Shown here one piece after another: positions 19,746 to 61,397 of a DNA stretch of 64,000 nt. Origin of the DNA: Burkholderiaceae bacterium (GTDB taxonomy: Bacteria > Pseudomonadota > Gammaproteobacteria > Burkholderiales > Burkholderiaceae_A); assembly GCA_018402635.1 (NCBI GenBank), contig JAGYIP010000005.1:186001-250000 (forward strand), read 5' to 3'. Every line of letters starts with the position of its first letter. Position 1 is the first letter of the stretch. The notes below the pieces were generated by a model. The model was given only the letters and a program-made list of their open reading frames with translations, did no database searches and was not told the DNA's origin. The position numbers were made by a program, and so were the translations under genes.

Positions 19746-20827
19746 CTAGTTGCCCCAGATGGACCATGGCGTCTGAATCCATATGCCTATAACAACCAGC
19801 CAGACGAGCGTGACGGGAATGAAGATCTTCCAACCCAGGCGCATGATCTGGTCGTAGCGGTAGCGGGGAAACGAGGCCCGAAGCCAGATAAACATGCTTA
19901 CAACTAAGAATGTTTTTAATCCAAGCCAGATCCAGCCAGGAATAAAGGCAAGCTCGGCAAGCGGCGCATCCCAGCCACCCAAAAACATAACGGCTGCCAA
20001 CATGGAAAGAAGAATCATGTTGGCGTACTCGGCCAAAAAGAAGATGGCAAACGACATGCCCGAGTACTCCACCATGTGGCCTGCAACAATTTCAGACTCG
20101 CCCTCCACCACATCAAAGGGATGCCGGTTGGTTTCGGCAACGGCAGAAATAAAATAGACGACGAAAATGGGTAGAAGCGGTAGCCAGTTCCAGGACAAGA
20201 AGTGCAGACCGGCCTCGTGGAACTGCCCTTTTGTTGGCCCAGAACAATCTCGGTAAGGTTTAGACTGCCTGACACCATAAGAACAACCACCATGGCAAAG
20301 CCAATGGCAAGCTCGTAGGAAACCATTTGGGCCGAGGCTCGCATGGCGCCAAGAAAGGCGTACTTCGAGTTCGAAGCCCAGCCCGCAAGAATGACACCGT
20401 AGACTTCAAGCGAGGTAATGGCTAAGAGAAACAAAAGGCCCGCGTTAATATTGGCAAGCACCACATCGGGGCCGAAAGGAATGACGGCCCAGGCAGCCAG
20501 AGCCGGCATAATGGTCATAACCGGGGCAATAAGATACAGACCTTTGCTTGCCTGAGTGGGAACAATAAGTTCTTTAGTAAGCAGCTTGAGGCTGTCAGCA
20601 ATCGGCTGAAGCAGGCCCAAAGGCCCCACTCGGTTCGGCCCAAGGCGCACGTGCATCCAGCCAATAAGCTTGCGCTCCCACAGGGTGAGGTAGGCAACAG
20701 CCCCAAGAATGGGAACCACAATAAGCATGATCTTCAATAGGTTGTAAACAACCGGCCAGGCAAGCCCCAAGTGGGTCTGGCCTAGCGTTTCAAGTGAAAC
20801 AAAGAATTCGGAGCTAAACAGACCCAC
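19746..20827 (-). CDS. nuoH: NADH-quinone oxidoreductase subunit H, frameshifted
   Basis: About 360 aa when repaired, the quinone-chamber subunit. The N-terminal part (from ATG 20827) includes [20 protein letters not shown] and [19 protein letters not shown]. After LGQQKG the frame fails; the rest ([56 protein letters not shown]) continues in another frame to 19746. A run of three C at 20226-20228 should be four, giving [15 protein letters not shown]. Because complex I needs this subunit and all its neighbours are intact, a sequencing error is the likely cause. Confidence 0.93.
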
Positions 20828-53797: not shown

Positions 53798-56330
53798 CTA
53801 GGCCTGCAGTCTGCGAAAGGCCAAGATGGGCGGGGTGGACAGAACCTGGCGCAGGGCGATCCAGCCCGCACCAAGGCTTACAACACTACCCACCAAGGCG
53901 CCAATCAGAGGCCAGGTAAGACGAAACGGAACGGGCAGATCAAAGACCTGCTCAGCCAGTAGGCTGCCAAGAAGCTGCGCAACCAGGCCTGCAGCAAAGC
54001 CCGCAACCGCCCCAACCAGCAATAGCTCGGTCGCCTGACGCACGACCAGTCGCGCGCGGGGTGCACCGAGCGCTCGTAACAACGTGGCCTCGCGTATGCG
54101 CTCGTCACGGCTTGCTAAGAGTGCCGCCCAGAGCACAAGAACCCCTGAGGCAAGGCTAAACATGAAAAGCGCCTGCACAGCACCAATGACCTGCTCAAGC
54201 ATTCGCCGCACTTGGCTAATCATTGCATCAAGATCAATTAGGCTAACCCCGGGAAAGCGGCTGGTCAGACTCTGGTTCAGCCCCGCAGCCTCAGAGGAGG
54301 CCGGGAGATAAAACGAGGTGATGAAGGTCTGTGGCATGTCTTGCAGCACGGCCGGCGAGAGAATCATAAAGAAGTTCACCTGCATGGAGTCCCAGCGAAG
54401 GTCGCGCAGGCTCGTTACCTTCGCCCAGGCGGGCTCGCCGGAAATATCAAAGCCAAGCCGATCGCCAACTTCAATGCCTAAGGTGCGGGCAATGCCCGAC
54501 TCCACCGACACCTCGTTGGCCCGGGGTTCAATCGGGCTGCCTGTCCGTATGACGTTGTAATCGGGAACCTTGCCGTACGACAAGTTCAGCTCTCGGTCCA
54601 AAAGCCGCTGGGCACGCTGATCGTCAAAGTCGTCAGGGCCCACAGGCTGATTATTAATACTTACAAGCCGACCCCGCACCATGGGGTAAAGGACAGCCTG
54701 CTTAATTCCCGCGGACTCAAGAATGGTCCCGACCTCTGTCTCTTGGCCTGGCTGAATGTTAAGCAGGAACCGATTGGGGGCATCCTGGGGTAGGCTTCTG
54801 CCCCACGCCTGAAGCAGGTCTTGCCTAAGAAACGCCAATAACAACAAGGCTGACATGGCCAGGCAGAGCCCAAGCACCTGCACGATAAGGCCCGAGCCGC
54901 GCCGACTTAGGATGCGTTGCAGGCTGGTTAGCGTCCAGCCCAAATGAGGCACCGTGGCAAGGCCCGCGGCTGTTACCCGAAAGCCAATCCATAAAACTGC
55001 AAAAAGAAGAAGGCCGAAAACCGAAAGGCCAATGGATGTATAGATGGCAAGCTCAAAGTTGCCACTGCCCATCCATAAAAGCAGCGTCATACCCAGTAAA
55101 CCCAGTGCCCCCAGCCCTGCACGTGCAACAAGCCCGCCAGAGCTTGTTGCCATGGAGTAGGAGTCGGAAGGCCGCAGACTTTGCCAGACCGGCGCCTGCA
55201 GCGCCTTCCAGACCGCGGGGCCAACAAAAAGCAGCGTCATACCCAGGCTTAAGGCGAAGGCCTGCAGAACAGGAAGCCATGCAAAAAAGCCAGTAAGGCC
55301 AAGGCTTGACCCAAACAACTCATTAAGCACGTGGCTGCCAATGCCCTGAAGCAAAAGACCCTGCACCGGTTCCCACAAGCCATGCAAGGACCACCATGCC
55401 CAGCAGAAGCCCAAGCCAGTAGCTCAGAAGCAGCCAACGTGTTGCGCCCATGGCCTTCATGACGGCGAGCCTTTGGGTGTAGAGAAGCCCAAGTCTGCGG
55501 CCTGAGAGCGCCATGGCCGCTGAGGCCGTAAGCACAGAGACCATGGCCGCAAGCGCAAGAAAACTTGTTGCACGATCGAGCGCATCACGAAGTTCGGGCC
55601 GGGCATTCTCGATGGTCTCAAGCCGCTGGCCCGCCCGAATGCGCCCTTCCATGGACTTATCGAAGGCCTCAAGCGCCTTGGGATCGTCGCTACCGAGCCA
55701 GAGCCGAAAGCGCACGCGGCTTCCGGGCGCTAGTAGGTTTGATGCAAGAAGTTCATCATGGCGCATCAGCACGCGGGGCGAGATATTCACGAAGTTCATG
55801 CCTCTGTCAGGCTCAAACTCAACAATCCCACCAATACGGTACGAGCGATCACCAAGTTCAATGGTGTCGCCCAGTGCAAGACCAAGGCGGCCTACAAGAC
55901 TGTCATCCACGAAGACCTCACCCGGTAGTAATGGTGGGTTCAGACGCAGTCCCTGAGCATTTCGCACTTGAAGGCTGCCACGCAGTGGATAGCCCTGCTC
56001 CACCGACTTTACCGAGACCAGCAGGTTACTGCCCCGCGCCACAACCATGCTTGGAAACTGACTGCCTTGAACCATACGCAGGCCCTGCGCCTTGGCCGCG
56101 TCAATCCATGCCTCGGGAAGGCTGCGGTCAGAGACCAGGAGTCGGTCGGCCCCAAGGCTTGCACGCGCATCGGCAAAAAGCGCAGACTCCACGCGACTGG
56201 CCAGCACACCGACCGAAACGATGGCCGCTACAGAAATTACGACGGCGGCAAGCATGAGACTCATTGCGCCTGAGCGCAGATCGCGCCAGGCAAGTTGTAA
56301 GGCAAAAGCGGGTCGAAGCTTAGGCTGCAC
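53798..56330 (-). CDS. YbbP-like ABC exporter permease (FtsX superfamily), frameshifted
   Basis: About 843 aa when repaired, near the length of E. coli YbbP. The N-terminal half includes LAWRDLRSGAMSLMLAAVVI, ASLGADRLLVSDRSLPEAW, FPSMVVARGSNLLVSVKSVE and GYPLRG. The C-terminal half contains ILSRRGSGLIVQVLGLCLA and REATLLRALGAPRARLVVRQ, and ends IALRQVLSTPPILAFRRL. The halves are in different frames; an additional base near 55366 (CACCGG) splits them inside TM segments. The start is probably GTG 56330, overlapping the stop of the previous permease. It is the last gene of the export operon. Confidence 0.8.
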
Positions 56331-57494
56331 GCAGGGCCTCCACAATGGCAATTCGCGAGGCACGAATGGCAGGAGCCATACCCCTAGAACGCCCATAAGA
56401 ACTGAGAAAACCAGGCTTTGAATGACGATGCCTGGTGTGAGATAAAAACCAAACGAGAGCTCAGAAAAGCTTTGAAAGTTTGTTGTTGAGAACTCGGTGA
56501 GCTGCATGAGGCTTGCGAAGGCAAGCCCAACCCCACCGCCCACCAGGGCAAGAAAAACCGACTCGGCAAGAAAGGCGAGAAGTATTGCGCTTCGTTGGAA
56601 ACCAAGCGCACGAAGGGTTCCAATTTCGTTAACCCGTGTTGCCACGGCAGCCTGCATGGTTATGGTGGCTCCAATTACCGCACCAATTGAAAAAATAACG
56701 GTAAGCGTAAGACCAAGAATTCGAATGAAGCGCGATAAGGTCTCGCTCTGATCCTCGTAGTACTGGCGTTCTGTCTTCGCCTTTAGAGGAAGCCGTGGAT
56801 CGTCCTCAATACGGCTGCGAAAGACATCCGCCTGACCCGGGTCCATAAGCCGAACAATGACAGACGAATAGGTGGTTCGACGAAACGACTGACGCAGAAT
56901 CTCTCCATCGGCCCAGATCTCGTTGTCAAAACCGCTTCGACCACCATCGAAGTGACCAACAATTCGCCAATCCCTTCCACCAAATCGCACCGACTCGCCA
57001 ATGGTCATACCCGCAAACTGCTTGGCCGTTGCCTGGCCAACCATGATCTCGTTGGAGCCCTGGCGAAAGAGCCGTCCATCAATCACTTGCACCTGCCTGC
57101 GCATATTAATACCTTGATGGTCAAGGCCACGAATTACGACATTCGATGGTCGCCCGGTCTCACGCTTTTTAAGGTTGACAAGCACGACCGTCTCACGCGA
57201 GGCAAGCGCCTCAAGATTCGTTGCCACCTCGGGGAACTGCGTAACAATATTTGCCTGGCTACGGTCAACGGAGCTCTGTACCTCGGTTACCGAACCCTGT
57301 CGGGTCACAACCATGTTGTCTGCCTCACCGGTACTAACAAGGGTTTGTTTAAGGCCGGCATCAAGCATCAGAACCGCTGCAAAAACATAAACCACCAAGG
57401 CCATCCCCATGGCGGTAAGGCCGGTGGTAAGTCGACGTACCCAGAGGTTTCGAAGGCTGTAGCTTAGTGGGACCGAAAAAAGTGCCTGCGCCAT
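56320..57494 (-). CDS. FtsX/MacB-type ABC permease (second), frameshifted at the 3' end
   Basis: About 391 aa when repaired. MAQALFSVPLSYSLRNLWVR and RLTTGLTAMGMALVVYVFAA give TM1; a periplasmic MacB-like domain follows; VNEIGTLRALGFQRSAILLA is the FtsX motif. The four C at 56381-56384 should be five; the frame then ends IRASRIAIVEALRAA with a TAA at 56322-56320, the typical end of these permeases. As written it fuses into the YbbP-like gene, producing an artificial 723-residue frame. It lies 12 nt below the first permease. Confidence 0.8.
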
Positions 57495-57506
57495 GGGTCG
57501 GCCGCC

Positions 57507-58667
57507 TCAAATGGCCCGAAGGCCCTCGACTATACGAATACGGTAGGCACGTATGCAGGGAAATACAGCAGCGACGAGGCCTGTTGCAAGCGCGGCACCG
57601 AGCTGCATAAGGCTGGTGTCAAACGAGACTGCAAAGTGGCGAAACATGTTGCCGGTCAATCCCTGAAAGACCATGGCCACCGGAAAGGTTAAGGCCATTG
57701 CCGTGAGCCCTCCAAGAACGGCAAGCAGCATGGACTCTGCAAGCACCAAGCCTGCAACAAATCGCGGTGAGAAACCAAGGGCCTTTAAGGTGGCGTATTC
57801 GGGGGTACGCTCGCGCGCCGTCATCGACATAGTGTTGGCCATCACCGCCATGATGATAAGAATGACAACGAAGGAGACGGCTCGAATGGCCACCACAATG
57901 GCCTCGGTCATGGCAACAAAGCCAAGCTGAAACGCCTGCTCGGTTTCCGTAAGTGTTTCTTTGGGCGAATTGGTGAATAAGGCATCAATGGCCATACCCA
58001 CCTCGGCAGCCCGCGAGGGATCTGGAACACTGGTAATGAAAACACCTACTGAGTTGGCATCGCGACTTATGTTGCGTTTTTTAACCTCTTCGTTCAGGTA
58101 AACCCAATGAAAATACATCTTTCCAGTATCGGTTTTTTCTTCCTTGCCGTCGTAGATGCCGGCAATTAGAAACTCCCACTGGCCTGGGAAAATCTGGCCC
58201 TTCAGCGTTATAAGATCTCCCACCTTAAAGCCGTGTTCATTGGCCAGCCTGCGGCCCACCACGGCGCTGCGTCGGTCTCGATAAAAGGCGGCACGCTCCT
58301 CGTCCGACAACATGTATTCGGGATAAATTTCAAAATAGCTAGGTGGATCCACCCCGAACTGCGGAAAGAAGTTTCGCGTGTCCTTGTAGACACCGCCAAA
58401 CCAGCGCGAGTAGGTCATGCGCTCCACACCATCAATACCGCGAATGCGCTCTCCGTAATTAAGGGGGAGTGGGAAAATAAGAGAGATGGAGCTACGCGTA
58501 ATAAGCCTTGCCTCGCTTGCGGCCTCTGCGCCTGCGTACCAGGCCTTCACCACAGTTGAGAGCAGCCCAAAAGCAAGAACCGCCACAAGCAGACCAATAA
58601 AGGTAAGCAAGGAGCGCATTCGGTTGCGCCAGATATTTAGAAAGAGCAGTTTAAAAATAAGCATCAA
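57507..58667 (-). CDS. FtsX/MacB-type ABC permease (first)
   Basis: 386 aa, intact. TM1 at LLFLNIWRNRMRSLLTFIGL, a periplasmic domain of about 220 residues (VVGRRLANEHGFKVGDLITL), then TM2-4 with ERTPEYATLKALGFSPRFVA and the end IRAYRIRIVEGLRAI. It is unlike the second permease in the periplasmic part. It is the first of three permease genes, 90 nt below the ATPase across a short tandem repeat. Confidence 0.9.
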   Translation of the reverse strand: MMLIFKLLFLNIWRNRMRSLLTFIGLLVAVLAFGLLSTVVKAWYAGAEAASEARLITRSSISLIFPLPLNYGERIRGIDGVERMTYSRWFGGVYKDTRNFFPQFGVDPPSYFEIYPEYMLSDEERAAFYRDRRSAVVGRRLANEHGFKVGDLITLKGQIFPGQWEFLIAGIYDGKEEKTDTGKMYFHWVYLNEEVKKRNISRDANSVGVFITSVPDPSRAAEVGMAIDALFTNSPKETLTETEQAFQLGFVAMTEAIVVAIRAVSFVVILIIMAVMANTMSMTARERTPEYATLKALGFSPRFVAGLVLAESMLLAVLGGLTAMALTFPVAMVFQGLTGNMFRHFAVSFDTSLMQLGAALATGLVAAVFPCIRAYRIRIVEGLRAI

Positions 58668-58702
58668 ACTCTAAACCAGCGTTGACTTCGGGCATCGGGC
58701 AT

Positions 58703-58742
58703 CTGATAACCGGATAACGGGATAGCGGGATAGCGGGATAGC
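58703..58742. repeat. Tandem repeat, five copies of an 8-nt unit
   Basis: Units CTGATAAC, CGGATAAC and three perfect GGGATAGC lie between the ATPase and the first permease of the export operon. The identical copies make slippage likely. The change would alter spacing between the two genes, not a reading frame. Confidence 0.85.
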
Positions 58743-58757
58743 GTGTATTCATCTTGC

Positions 58758-59438
58758 CTAGGCGGCCACAGGCTGCGACTCAAGCTGGCCTTTATCGAGA
58801 TGCACCATGGCACCGGCGTAGCTTGCCGCCTTTGGATCGTGGGTCACCATAAGAATGGTCTTTCCCTGATTGCTGTTCAGACGCTGCAGCATTTTCAAGA
58901 CCTCCTCGCCCGCGGCTCGGTCAAGGTCGCCAGTGGGTTCATCGGCAACAATAAGCGATGGGCTTGTAATGAGTGCACGGGCGATGGCCACGCGCTGCTG
59001 CTGGCCTCCGGAGAGTTCATTGGGGCGATGGCCCATGCGATCGGAGAGGCCCACCTGGGCAAGTGCCTGCTCGACACGTTGCCTGCGCTCGCTTGCAGAA
59101 GCGTTAGTTAGCTGCAAAGGCAGTTCAACATTTTCGTAGGCCGTTAGCACAGGGATGAGGTTGTAAAACTGAAAGATAAAGCCAACGTTTTCGGCTCGCC
59201 ATGCCGCAAGCTGGGAATCGGAGAGATTCACAATGTCGAGGCCTTCAATTTCAATCGAACCCTTCGTCGGCCGATCGATGCCAGCAATAAGATTCAAAAG
59301 CGTGCTTTTGCCCGAGCCCGAGGGGCCCATTAAGGCAAGAAAAGAACCCTGGGCGACATCGAGGCTGAGATCGTCAAGGACAGTCAGGACTTGATCACCG
59401 CGCTGATACGACTTGCATAAGTGACGTATGCGAATCAC
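58758..59438 (-). CDS. ABC exporter ATPase (MacB/LolD type)
   Basis: 226 aa. Walker [10 protein letters not shown] (about 38-46), [21 protein letters not shown]-loop, signature [16 protein letters not shown], Walker [14 protein letters not shown] and the switch His in MVTHDPKAA. It is a standard energiser of FtsX-type permeases. It overlaps the HlyD gene by 4 nt. Confidence 0.93.
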
Positions 59439-60556
59439 GACCCCGTCACCCTTCGAACCGATTGACCCGAACGAAGTCCGGCCGAGGGTCGAAGGACAAC
59501 GGTCTCGCCCACCTTGAGCATGGGTGCAGCAACAAGGTCGGCCTTGGGCGCCTCGATAAGCCCTAAGTCGATGGCCTCAAGCCTGTTGTCGACGACACGA
59601 AAGGCGCGCCATTGCCCGTCTTGCTCAACAACTGCGGCACGGTTAATCATAATTTGCGGAAGTCTTTCCTCAGGCTCAAGTGGCCGCTTAAGAAAAGAGA
59701 CCTTTGCCGACATGTCGGGAAGAACACGCGGGTCGATCTGATCGAACTGCAGTTTGACAAGGCGGGTCGCCTTGGCCCGATCGATGGTTGGCACCATGCG
59801 CGCAACCTTGCCTGGAAAACGCTCATTCGGAACTGCATCAAGTCCAATTTCAACCGGCTGGCCAACAACAATTTTTGCTGTGCTTGACTCAGACACATCG
59901 GCCTCGACTTCAAGGGTCGACATATCGGCCATCACCACCACAGCGCCCTTGGTGTCGGCCGCAGACGAAAAAGGTGTGATGTTGTCACCAACATTGGCGT
60001 TCTTGGTTAGCACAACCCCGTCGAAGGGGGCACGAATTTCGGCCTGTAACAGGGCTGCCTGGGAGACCTGCTGCGCCGCCCTTGCGGCATTCACCGAGGC
60101 AGAGGCCTTTTCAAGCCGGGCCAAGGCGGAGTCATGGGAGGCCTTCGAAATGTAGTTTTTCGCAAGCAAGGACTTCGAGCGTTCAAAGGCCCTTTGTGCA
60201 TCTGAGAGTTCAGCCTGGGCGAGGCCCACCTGCGCCTTGGCCTGATTCAACTGGGCCTGAAGCTCAGTGCTTTCAATCCTGGCTATAACATCGCCCTGCC
60301 GCACCGTTGAGCCCTCGGTCACTCCAAGCCATTCAAGCCGGCCGCTTGCTTTAGTTGAGACAGCGGCCTTACGCTGAGCAACAACGTAGCCGCTTGCATT
60401 TAGCACCGACAAAGCCTGCGAGGGAAAGACCGAGACCACTGTGGTGGTCTGAACAAGGGGCGGTTGCATCCACTGCGCAATACCCGCCACCAGTGCAATA
60501 ACAAGGACAAGCAGTGCAACGCGTCGTGGCCATGACTGGGGAATGAATGAGGGCAT
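59435..60556 (-). CDS. HlyD/MacA-type periplasmic adaptor
   Basis: 373 aa. A TM anchor (VALLVLVIALVAGIAQWMQ), a lipoyl half (GRLEWLGVTEGSTVRQGDVI), a coiled-coil hairpin of about 80 residues (LNQAKAQVGLAQAELSDAQR onwards), the second lipoyl half (IRAPFDGVVLTKNANVGDNI), a beta barrel and a membrane-proximal domain. It would connect the inner membrane permeases to an outer membrane channel such as TolC, not encoded here. Confidence 0.92.
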   Translation of the reverse strand: MPSFIPQSWPRRVALLVLVIALVAGIAQWMQPPLVQTTTVVSVFPSQALSVLNASGYVVAQRKAAVSTKASGRLEWLGVTEGSTVRQGDVIARIESTELQAQLNQAKAQVGLAQAELSDAQRAFERSKSLLAKNYISKASHDSALARLEKASASVNAARAAQQVSQAALLQAEIRAPFDGVVLTKNANVGDNITPFSSAADTKGAVVVMADMSTLEVEADVSESSTAKIVVGQPVEIGLDAVPNERFPGKVARMVPTIDRAKATRLVKLQFDQIDPRVLPDMSAKVSFLKRPLEPEERLPQIMINRAAVVEQDGQWRAFRVVDNRLEAIDLGLIEAPKADLVAAPMLKVGETVVLRPSAGLRSGQSVRRVTGS

Positions 60557-60574
60557 AGAAGAGCTTTTTTAAGC

Positions 60575-60596
60575 GACCTAGGGTTTACGATAGGTC
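60575..60596. repeat. Inverted repeat between SUMF1-like gene and HlyD gene
   Basis: GACCTA (60575-60580) and TAGGTC (60591-60596) flank 10 nt in the 55-nt gap. On the minus strand it is followed by an A-run, not T, so it is not a clear terminator. Perhaps a processing or attenuation site. Confidence 0.35.
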
Positions 60597-60611
60597 TAGT
60601 GTAACGACTTA

Positions 60612-61397
60612 CTAGGACGGCTTTTGAACACAACGAAAGCCAATGTAGGCAACACGGGTGTCCACCGGCTTTGTGGCAACGTCCGACTCTTTCTGACGTT
60701 CTGGCCCGTACCACCACGAGGCACTTCGGGTAATTGCTTCAGACCCTTTTCCAGAGTCTACCCATTCCCAGACATTACCACCCATATCCCACAGGCCGTT
60801 GACGCCCCGTTGTGTGGTCATAACTGCAACATGGCCGTCGCCTTGCCAGAGGCTGCCCTTGGGTGCCAGCCCCGCATATGACCCGCAGCCCCGAAGGCAA
60901 TGGGCCCCTTGAGGCGAATCGCCCGAGGGGTAGGTATAACGCTTGCCCTTTACAAACCCTGCGGGCGGAGCGGCCCGTTGTTCAAGGTAGGCTGCATCAA
61001 CCCATTCCTTATCGGTAGGCAGTCGCTTATTGAAGAACTGGCAGACGGCCTGAGCCTCTGAGAAGGTTAGATGAACGGCAGGCTCGTTGTCGGCCGCGGG
61101 CAGCCCAAAAGGTGACCGCCAGGTCCAGCCGGGCTTTTTTGTCCAGCCCGCCTCGTAAATGAAGCCACCAGCCTCGCGCTCGGCTTGGCTTAAGAAACCT
61201 GTGGCGCTCGCATAGCGCTTAAGGCTGCCCACCGAGACCTCGTGAGCATCCCAGAGCAGCTGCCCAACCGGTACCTGCCGCTCAAGCGCCTTCGCAGGCT
61301 GCTCAGTTGGGCCGGACTGAGCGCTGGCCTGGCCAGAGCTCAACGAAACAGCAACCAGGCAAATAAGCAAGGACAGTAGAAGAGTTGATCGGAACAT
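60612..61397 (-). CDS. Secreted SUMF1/PvdO-like (formylglycine-generating-enzyme family) protein
   Basis: 261 aa. An N-terminal signal peptide (RSTLLLSLLICLVAVSLSSG, cleaved near ASA-QS) and then the FGE-sulfatase fold: KRLPTDKEWVDAAYLEQRA, GLWDMGGNVWEWVDSG and VAYIGFRCVQKP. The Cys pair used by true formylglycine-generating enzymes is not present in the RSASWWYGPERQ region, so a classical FGE reaction is unlikely. It heads the export operon. The PvdO protein beside the PvdRT-OpmQ exporter in Pseudomonas is a possible parallel (inference). ATG 61397 is chosen for the signal peptide. Confidence 0.85.
   Translation of the reverse strand: MFRSTLLLSLLICLVAVSLSSGQASAQSGPTEQPAKALERQVPVGQLLWDAHEVSVGSLKRYASATGFLSQAEREAGGFIYEAGWTKKPGWTWRSPFGLPAADNEPAVHLTFSEAQAVCQFFNKRLPTDKEWVDAAYLEQRAAPPAGFVKGKRYTYPSGDSPQGAHCLRGCGSYAGLAPKGSLWQGDGHVAVMTTQRGVNGLWDMGGNVWEWVDSGKGSEAITRSASWWYGPERQKESDVATKPVDTRVAYIGFRCVQKPS

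Follow-up and report, generated by a model that had tools for sequence, protein, structure and literature searches.

The permease units of four transmembrane helices (4-TM) that characterize the MacB, or type VII, superfamily of ATP-binding cassette (ABC) transporters occur as homodimers, as heterodimers such as LolCE or, in YbbP, joined into a single chain, as set out in the accessible part of PMC5985334. The Escherichia coli YbbP is a pseudo-dimer of 10 transmembrane helices, and the accessible text on the YbbAP-TesA complex (PDB 9GE6-9GE8; PMC12646458) gives it a 2:1:1 composition, with two YbbA and one TesA, and proposes that it lifts lysophospholipids or similar molecules from the inner membrane for hydrolysis. 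Here we describe a run of six minus-strand genes encoding a SUMF1-like protein, an HlyD/MacA-type adaptor, an ABC ATPase and three FtsX-type permeases, the last of which is of the YbbP type, in a 64,000-nucleotide (nt) stretch of the genome of a Burkholderiaceae bacterium (assembly GCA_018402635.1, contig JAGYIP010000005.1, positions 186,001 to 250,000; this whole stretch is called the window below). The six genes probably comprise a two-permease exporter, the displaced ybbP gene of a YbbAP-TesA system behind it, and an independent SUMF1-like gene in front.

The exporter part of the locus shares features with several described machines. The adaptor is of the MacA type and carries the RLS motif RSKSLLAKNYIS, as in MacAB-TolC (PDB 5NIK) and the Spr0693-0694-0695 pump (PDB 5XU1), and the permease fold is also common to them; unlike MacAB-TolC, in which MacB is one chain with one permease, the operon has a separate ATPase gene and two dissimilar permeases. 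The Spr0693-0694-0695 pump likewise has its ATPase apart from the permease, according to the accessible part of its description. LolCDE resembles the operon in having a separate ATPase and two different 4-TM permeases, which are predicted to form a heterodimer here as well, and LolD is the best-matching family of the ATPase. It differs in that the operon includes an HlyD adaptor, and the NCBIfam scores remain below the cut-offs (LolD, 238.1 of 307.75 bits; lolCE for FtsX-1, 26.5 of 362.45 bits). The DevBCA and DarBCD exporters, compared via their NCBIfam models only, match the ATPase with 230 bits (DarD) and 219 bits (DevA), again short of the cut-offs. These two systems combine an adaptor and a separate ATPase with one FtsX-type permease, as opposed to the two in the window's operon.

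The conserved exporter core

Exporter loci were collected by scanning named genomes with an FtsX-1 profile, and the best 80 of 247 confirmed matches were analyzed. Where the contig allowed the test, HlyD was present at 66/66 loci, the ATPase at 67/67 and FtsX-2 at 64/65, and YbbP was found behind FtsX-2 at only 10 of 62, all of them in the family of the window; the remaining 52 have the exporter without YbbP. Since the other four genes are present at nearly all these loci and a YbbP behind FtsX-2 is confined to one family, the exporter core is HlyD-ATPase-FtsX1-FtsX2 and YbbP is a family-specific addition. These counts support a conserved unit made up of a single adaptor, a single ATPase and a pair of dissimilar 4-TM permeases. 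An earlier note on this DNA had suggested comparing gene neighbourhoods for co-occurrence of all six genes; the comparison upheld the four core genes, with YbbP at this place limited to the family and the adjoining SUMF1-like gene to part of one genus.

The loci among these best 80 matches are mostly labelled Betaproteobacteria, with a few labelled Bradyrhizobium, Brocadia and Nitrospiraceae, and the two-permease core, TolC-docking adaptor included, is common across the Betaproteobacteria. Two metagenome bins, titled Bordetella parapertussis (L061, identical to genome G004 of the window's genus) and Chitinophaga pinensis (L107), have titles that look wrong, because their loci belong to other lineages. 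The sole exception among the 65 loci testable for FtsX-2 (L115, 2179-12175) has no FtsX-2 following FtsX-1 despite a remaining 10 kb of contig. At another locus (L068, 3233-13060; Azospira sp. I13) the ATPase is separated from FtsX-1 by other genes, which presumably include those for a SelO-like protein and an aldehyde dehydrogenase-like one, and the distance from FtsX-1 to FtsX-2 is about 1.9 kb. Clustering of the open reading frames (ORFs) of the 80 loci yielded no fixed accessory gene for the core; what recurred were antisense shadow ORFs and chromosomal neighbours, among them genes that we take to encode a Nudix protein (15 loci) and NadE (15 loci).

The RxxxLxxxxxxS pattern (R-x3-L-x6-S), given in the accessible part of PMC3391258 as the motif by which MacA and AcrA dock to TolC, occurs anywhere in 58 of 76 core adaptors (18 are without it) versus 644 of 3800 shuffled proteins. 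By a crude position pattern, 51 of the 76 have it where the hairpin tip is expected, at a fixed spacing ahead of the second lipoyl half. An AlphaFold2 model of FtsX-1 built from 35 sequences has a mean predicted local distance difference test score (pLDDT) of 85.3, and its fold (VIA) matches 5xu1 chain M (Z 23.9) and LolE (Z 23.2) with effectively tied scores.

From gene content and fold, FtsX-1 and FtsX-2 would form a heterodimer, as LolC and LolE do, within a type VII ABC exporter powered by two copies of the single operon ATPase, and the MacA-like adaptor would pass cargo to an outer-membrane channel encoded elsewhere, presumably by TolC coupling. The earlier note had considered a single ATPase beside three permeases to be odd. 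YbbP is a pseudo-dimer and would therefore need no second permease; with FtsX-1 and FtsX-2 as the two half-transporters of the operon ATPase, the oddity is resolved. The literature search turned up no name or cargo for the core, although either may have been published, and a search for an FtsX/FGE/HlyD operon returned nothing relevant.

YbbP and the separate YbbA-TesA locus

The permease at the tail of the operon would be an ordinary YbbP orthologue, that is, a pseudo-dimer complete in itself that would bind two YbbA subunits and, on the periplasmic side, TesA. Like the E. coli protein it is a full-length two-domain permease, and residues 11-828 of the orthologue at L057 match E. coli YbbP (9ge6_A) over 818 residues with an E-value of 4e-85. 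Unlike in the E. coli system, however, ybbP is located behind an exporter operon, with FtsX-2 upstream, and not behind ybbA, while YbbA and TesA are encoded in the same genome, side by side at another place. In a survey of 61 genomes, 26 of them from the window's family (the window's own genome is G000), YbbP matches were found in 51, including 23 of the family genomes. Each of these 23 has a single YbbP, although the one in G000 gives two matching pieces, and two YbbPs are present in G030, a genome outside the family. In the family, ybbP follows FtsX-2 in all 23 genomes but G001; the 22 include G015 by coordinates only, G006 and G021, whose contigs end inside the operon, and G024, whose YbbP frame is in two pieces.

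A separate YbbA elsewhere, which the earlier note had named as evidence against a single system, is indeed encoded in the window's genome (G000:C7:260007-260678), beside tesA (in two frames, 259308-259963). In NCBIfam comparisons this distal ATPase scores 263 bits with YbbA versus 233 bits with LolD, neither reaching its cut-off, and the operon ATPase shows the opposite order, with 238 bits for LolD versus 211 bits for YbbA. A YbbA profile was built from 11 outgroup ATPases encoded directly upstream of YbbP, and with it a YbbA orthologue of at least 285 bits was detected in 49 of the 51 YbbP genomes. G030 has a further YbbA next to its additional YbbP; with that one set aside, the best paralogue scores 279 bits. 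The ATPase of G024 (262 bits) adjoins tesA and was counted as the fiftieth YbbA. The remaining genome, G014, is without YbbA, TesA and also PurL, the neighbour of both in its relatives, and because PurL is missing too the gap is likely to be one of assembly; G014 was accordingly rejected as a truly YbbA-less YbbP genome.

None of the ten genomes that lack YbbP has a YbbA above the score threshold or a TesA match, although four of the ten are only 68-79% complete. Co-occurrence of YbbP with YbbA gives p 1.2e-10 by Fisher's test, which ignores relatedness, or 1.9e-7 when these four are left out. The TesA query was a single family protein; as a control, it found TesA beside YbbA in 12/12 outgroup YbbP genomes tried. 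In the family, ybbA is unlinked to YbbP and near tesA, the two sharing a locus in each of the 17 family genomes taken for rate covariation, and a loss of YbbA with the operon ATPase taking over its role was therefore rejected. YbbA would thus be the ATPase that powers the operon-borne YbbP from a distance.

G001 (97% complete) is a natural case in which the exporter has been lost and YbbP retained. Here YbbP stands alone and at full length, with no exporter gene between its flanks, which we take to be a dienelactone-hydrolase-like (DLH) and an isocitrate-lyase (ICL) gene, and ybbA and tesA are carried side by side. FtsX-1 was not found anywhere in G001; the other exporter genes were sought at this locus only. 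Outside the family, YbbP and the exporter show no association, FtsX-1 being present in 9 of 28 genomes with YbbP versus 1 of 7 without (p 0.64).

Separation of ybbP from ybbA is not restricted to the family. An ATPase gene is located directly upstream of YbbP at 20 of 27 outgroup loci and at the other 7 there is none directly upstream; the seven genomes concerned carry YbbA at another place, in G048 one gene away. The family YbbPs fall on one side of a branch with a Shimodaira-Hasegawa-like approximate likelihood ratio test (SH-aLRT) support of 99, in a quick tree of 46 sequences of which 19 are from the family, which fits one relocation; ybbP would have come to sit behind the exporter operon in the family ancestor. 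Of 120 columns conserved in at least 90% of the 27 outgroup YbbPs, 72 keep their residue in at least 80% of the 19 family YbbPs.

Several observations weigh against a simple displacement of ybbP. The curated YbbP cut-off (999 bits) is reached in 0/61 genomes; 20 of those 61 have an ATPase directly upstream, and 1 of 14 control genomes reaches the cut-off. The margin that separates YbbA from its best paralogue, 285 versus 279 bits, is thin. One conserved residue differs from YbbAP-TesA, an outgroup Arg being Lys in 95% of family YbbPs in what is presumed, by eye, to be the first coupling helix, so that the contact with the ATPase, or the partner itself, may have changed. Over all 61 genomes FtsX-1 is present in 30/51 with YbbP versus 2/10 without (p 0.037), a weak association that arises because the family carries both. 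Persistence of YbbP behind FtsX-2 in 22/23 family genomes, together with the start/stop overlap of the two genes, suggests that joint expression of YbbP with the exporter has some benefit. Background-corrected evolutionary rate covariation of YbbP in 13 family genomes was 0.74 with FtsX-2, 0.70 with HlyD, 0.62 with FtsX-1, 0.62 with YbbA, 0.55 with the operon ATPase and 0.45 with TesA, and values from 8 genomes favoured the exporter (HlyD 0.87, FtsX-1 and FtsX-2 0.78, ATPase 0.59, YbbA 0.55, TesA 0.53). The pairs are not independent, and 4 of the 17 genomes were left out of the larger run where one of the nine genes was missing from the set; taken together, the values do not discriminate between the candidate partners.

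Two alternatives draw on these observations. The operon ATPase might be shared, driving the FtsX1/FtsX2 exporter and YbbP as two alternative complexes, as could be expected from the fixed place of YbbP behind FtsX-2, the overlap of its likely start with the FtsX-2 stop, seen in the window and in all but one of four relatives, and a rate covariation of YbbP with HlyD, FtsX-1 and FtsX-2 that equals or exceeds that with YbbA. It is nonetheless unlikely, given that a separate YbbA is present in 50/51 genomes with YbbP and in 0/10 without, that G001 has lost the exporter and kept YbbP, and that the exporter is found without YbbP at 52 of 62 testable loci. Somewhat more doubtful still, the family YbbP may itself be shared, working with YbbA-TesA and also with the exporter ATPase or adaptor, both machines being co-expressed and run together. 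If so, lysophospholipids, for example, could be cleared by both hydrolysis and export, and a permease that serves two machines in this way would be unusual. The preferred reading remains that ybbP belongs to YbbAP-TesA and was displaced to the tail of the exporter operon.

An 870-amino-acid (aa) double-FtsX protein was considered as a second YbbP of the window's genome and rejected, since the YbbP search did not match it and an ATPase of its own is encoded with it. Besides this permease and its ATPase, the locus (L052, 2403-6958; G000:C3, ~163.4-168.0 kb) encodes a 383-aa neighbour that is presumably CrtC/AttH-like and has no NCBIfam match.

The SUMF1-like gene

The protein encoded in front of the adaptor contains an FGE-sulfatase domain (Pfam, 75.6 bits versus a cut-off of 23.3) in common with the FGE/PvdO family, and its best relatives in the PDB are CalU17, SUMF2 and FGE. 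The earlier note correctly stated that it is without the catalytic Cys pair: no cysteine occurs between GNVWEW and GFRC of the window's protein, and it is between GNxWEW and GFRC that we take the FGE pair to be expected. Unlike FGE, which has cysteines in this active-site stretch, the SUMF1-like proteins have C167 and C171, mostly in a CLxGC arrangement, which are invariant together with C119 in 15/15 aligned members. An AlphaFold2 model from 5 sequences (mean pLDDT 41.6) was too poor for use.

Close SUMF1-like orthologues were found in 15 of 100 genomes searched, including that of the window. In six genomes of one genus (the window's, G010, G009, G002, G003 and G004) the gene directly precedes HlyD, and in G002 its stop abuts the HlyD start. 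In the other nine (G001, G008, G013, G015, G017, G021, G023, G076 and G099) it is away from the exporter, meaning that no exporter gene occurs in the stretch around it, some of these contigs being short. At one locus (L041) it sits between two non-exporter genes, which we take to be those of an rpoH-like sigma factor and a CtaB-like protein. Conversely, the SUMF1-like gene is present at only 3 of 65 testable exporter loci; a fourth, L061, lies on a contig too short to count.

These distributions bear on the proposal of the earlier note that all six genes form a single system, in which adaptor, ATPase and three permeases would act together with a SUMF1-like protein that might mature or chaperone the exported cargo. 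The adjacency to HlyD in one genus and the abutting genes of G002 are what such a system would show, but the nine genomes with the gene apart from the exporter and its scarcity at exporter loci make it highly improbable, and with YbbP absent from 52/62 loci and alone in G001 as well, the six-gene system was rejected on co-occurrence across genomes and loci. Independent occurrence of the homologues, the other finding that the earlier note had said would tell against a single system, is thus also observed. The best reading is that the SUMF1-like gene is independent and is a neighbour of the operon in some members of one genus. The parallel drawn with PvdO is weak: no cargo or fixed exporter partner was found for the SUMF1-like protein, and the final oxidation step of the pyoverdine fluorophore depends on PvdO, according to the accessible part of PMC6206403.

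Reading frames and layout of the locus

The last two ORFs of the run do not correspond to genes. The 723-aa ORF at 55323-57494 is FtsX-2 fused out of frame to the beginning of YbbP (positions 6-311 of NF041854) and the 538-aa ORF at 53798-55414 is the remainder of YbbP (positions 314-798). Three dissimilar permeases, as the earlier note had counted, are therefore encoded, although the boundaries it had given them were wrong. Compared with G006, the closest relative examined (91.8% DNA identity over 5.3 kb), the window shows two 1-bp indels between the YbbP stop and the FtsX-2 start, one near 55359 and the other near 56381. Each sits in a short G/C run of one base, and in G006 both frames are open. 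FtsX-2 and YbbP are also single open frames in four further relatives (L043, L045, L048 and L049), and in three of the four FtsX-2 ends in GGMLPAIRASRIAIVEALRAA within a continuous frame, as it nearly does in the remaining one.

The window's nuoH (19746-20827, minus strand) is likewise split between two frames, with the NCBIfam NuoH model matching both pieces, as is tesA elsewhere in the genome. Because these genes are split too and the frames of G006 are open, single-base assembly errors are the likely cause of the breaks in FtsX-2 and YbbP. Were both frameshifts real, the two genes would be decaying pseudogenes, a view to which the broken tesA of this genome lends some support; this is improbable in view of the split nuoH, the position of the indels in short G/C runs and the open frames of so close a relative as G006.

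The features of the locus are collected in Table 1. The earlier description of a minus-strand run, with a signal-peptide SUMF1-like gene followed by HlyD, ATPase and FtsX genes, was accurate, and so was the 4-nt overlap of the ATPase with HlyD (59435-59438); tight spacing does not apply throughout, as gaps of 55 nt and about 90 nt separate SUMF1 from HlyD and the ATPase from FtsX-1, respectively. The latter gap (58668-58757) holds repeated copies of CTATCCCG, and in the relative G005 it is shorter and without the copies. The SUMF1-like gene starts with the ATG at 61397. The likely start of YbbP is a GTG that overlaps the FtsX-2 stop by 11 nt in the window; an overlap is also present in G002, G003 and G004 and is not clear in G009. 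Promoter and terminator scans stayed at chance level (4 hits versus 4.0 expected, and 13 versus 11.8, respectively).

Table 1. Genes of the exporter locus in the window, listed in the order of transcription
Feature	Position	Strand	Basis
SUMF1/FGE-like protein, 261 aa	60612..61397	-	Pfam PF03781, 75.6 bits; Sec-type signal peptide judged by eye
HlyD/MacA-type periplasmic adaptor, 373 aa, with TolC-docking RLS pattern RSKSLLAKNYIS	59435..60556	-	NCBIfam RND_mfp, 173 bits (cut-off 94.9)
Exporter ABC ATPase, 226 aa	58758..59438	-	NCBIfam LolD 238, DarD 230, MacB 221, YbbA 211 bits, all four below cut-off
FtsX-1, 4-TM MacB/LolE-type permease, 386 aa	57507..58667	-	Pfam FtsX and MacB_PCD; AlphaFold2 model
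FtsX-2, second MacB-type permease (384-387 aa in four relatives)	56320..57494	-	Pfam MacB_PCD and FtsX; frame broken near 56381
YbbP-type permease (845-859 aa in four relatives)	53798..56330	-	NCBIfam NF041854 in two pieces; frame broken near 55359

Significance

The locus is a new arrangement of known parts, in which a two-permease, adaptor-linked exporter is followed by a displaced ybbP. When ybbP closes the operon of another type VII ABC transporter, its product is not necessarily a subunit of that transporter. In the order, ybbP has repeatedly been parted from ybbA-tesA (7/27 outgroup loci), which matters for the annotation of YbbAP-TesA systems, described only recently (2025).

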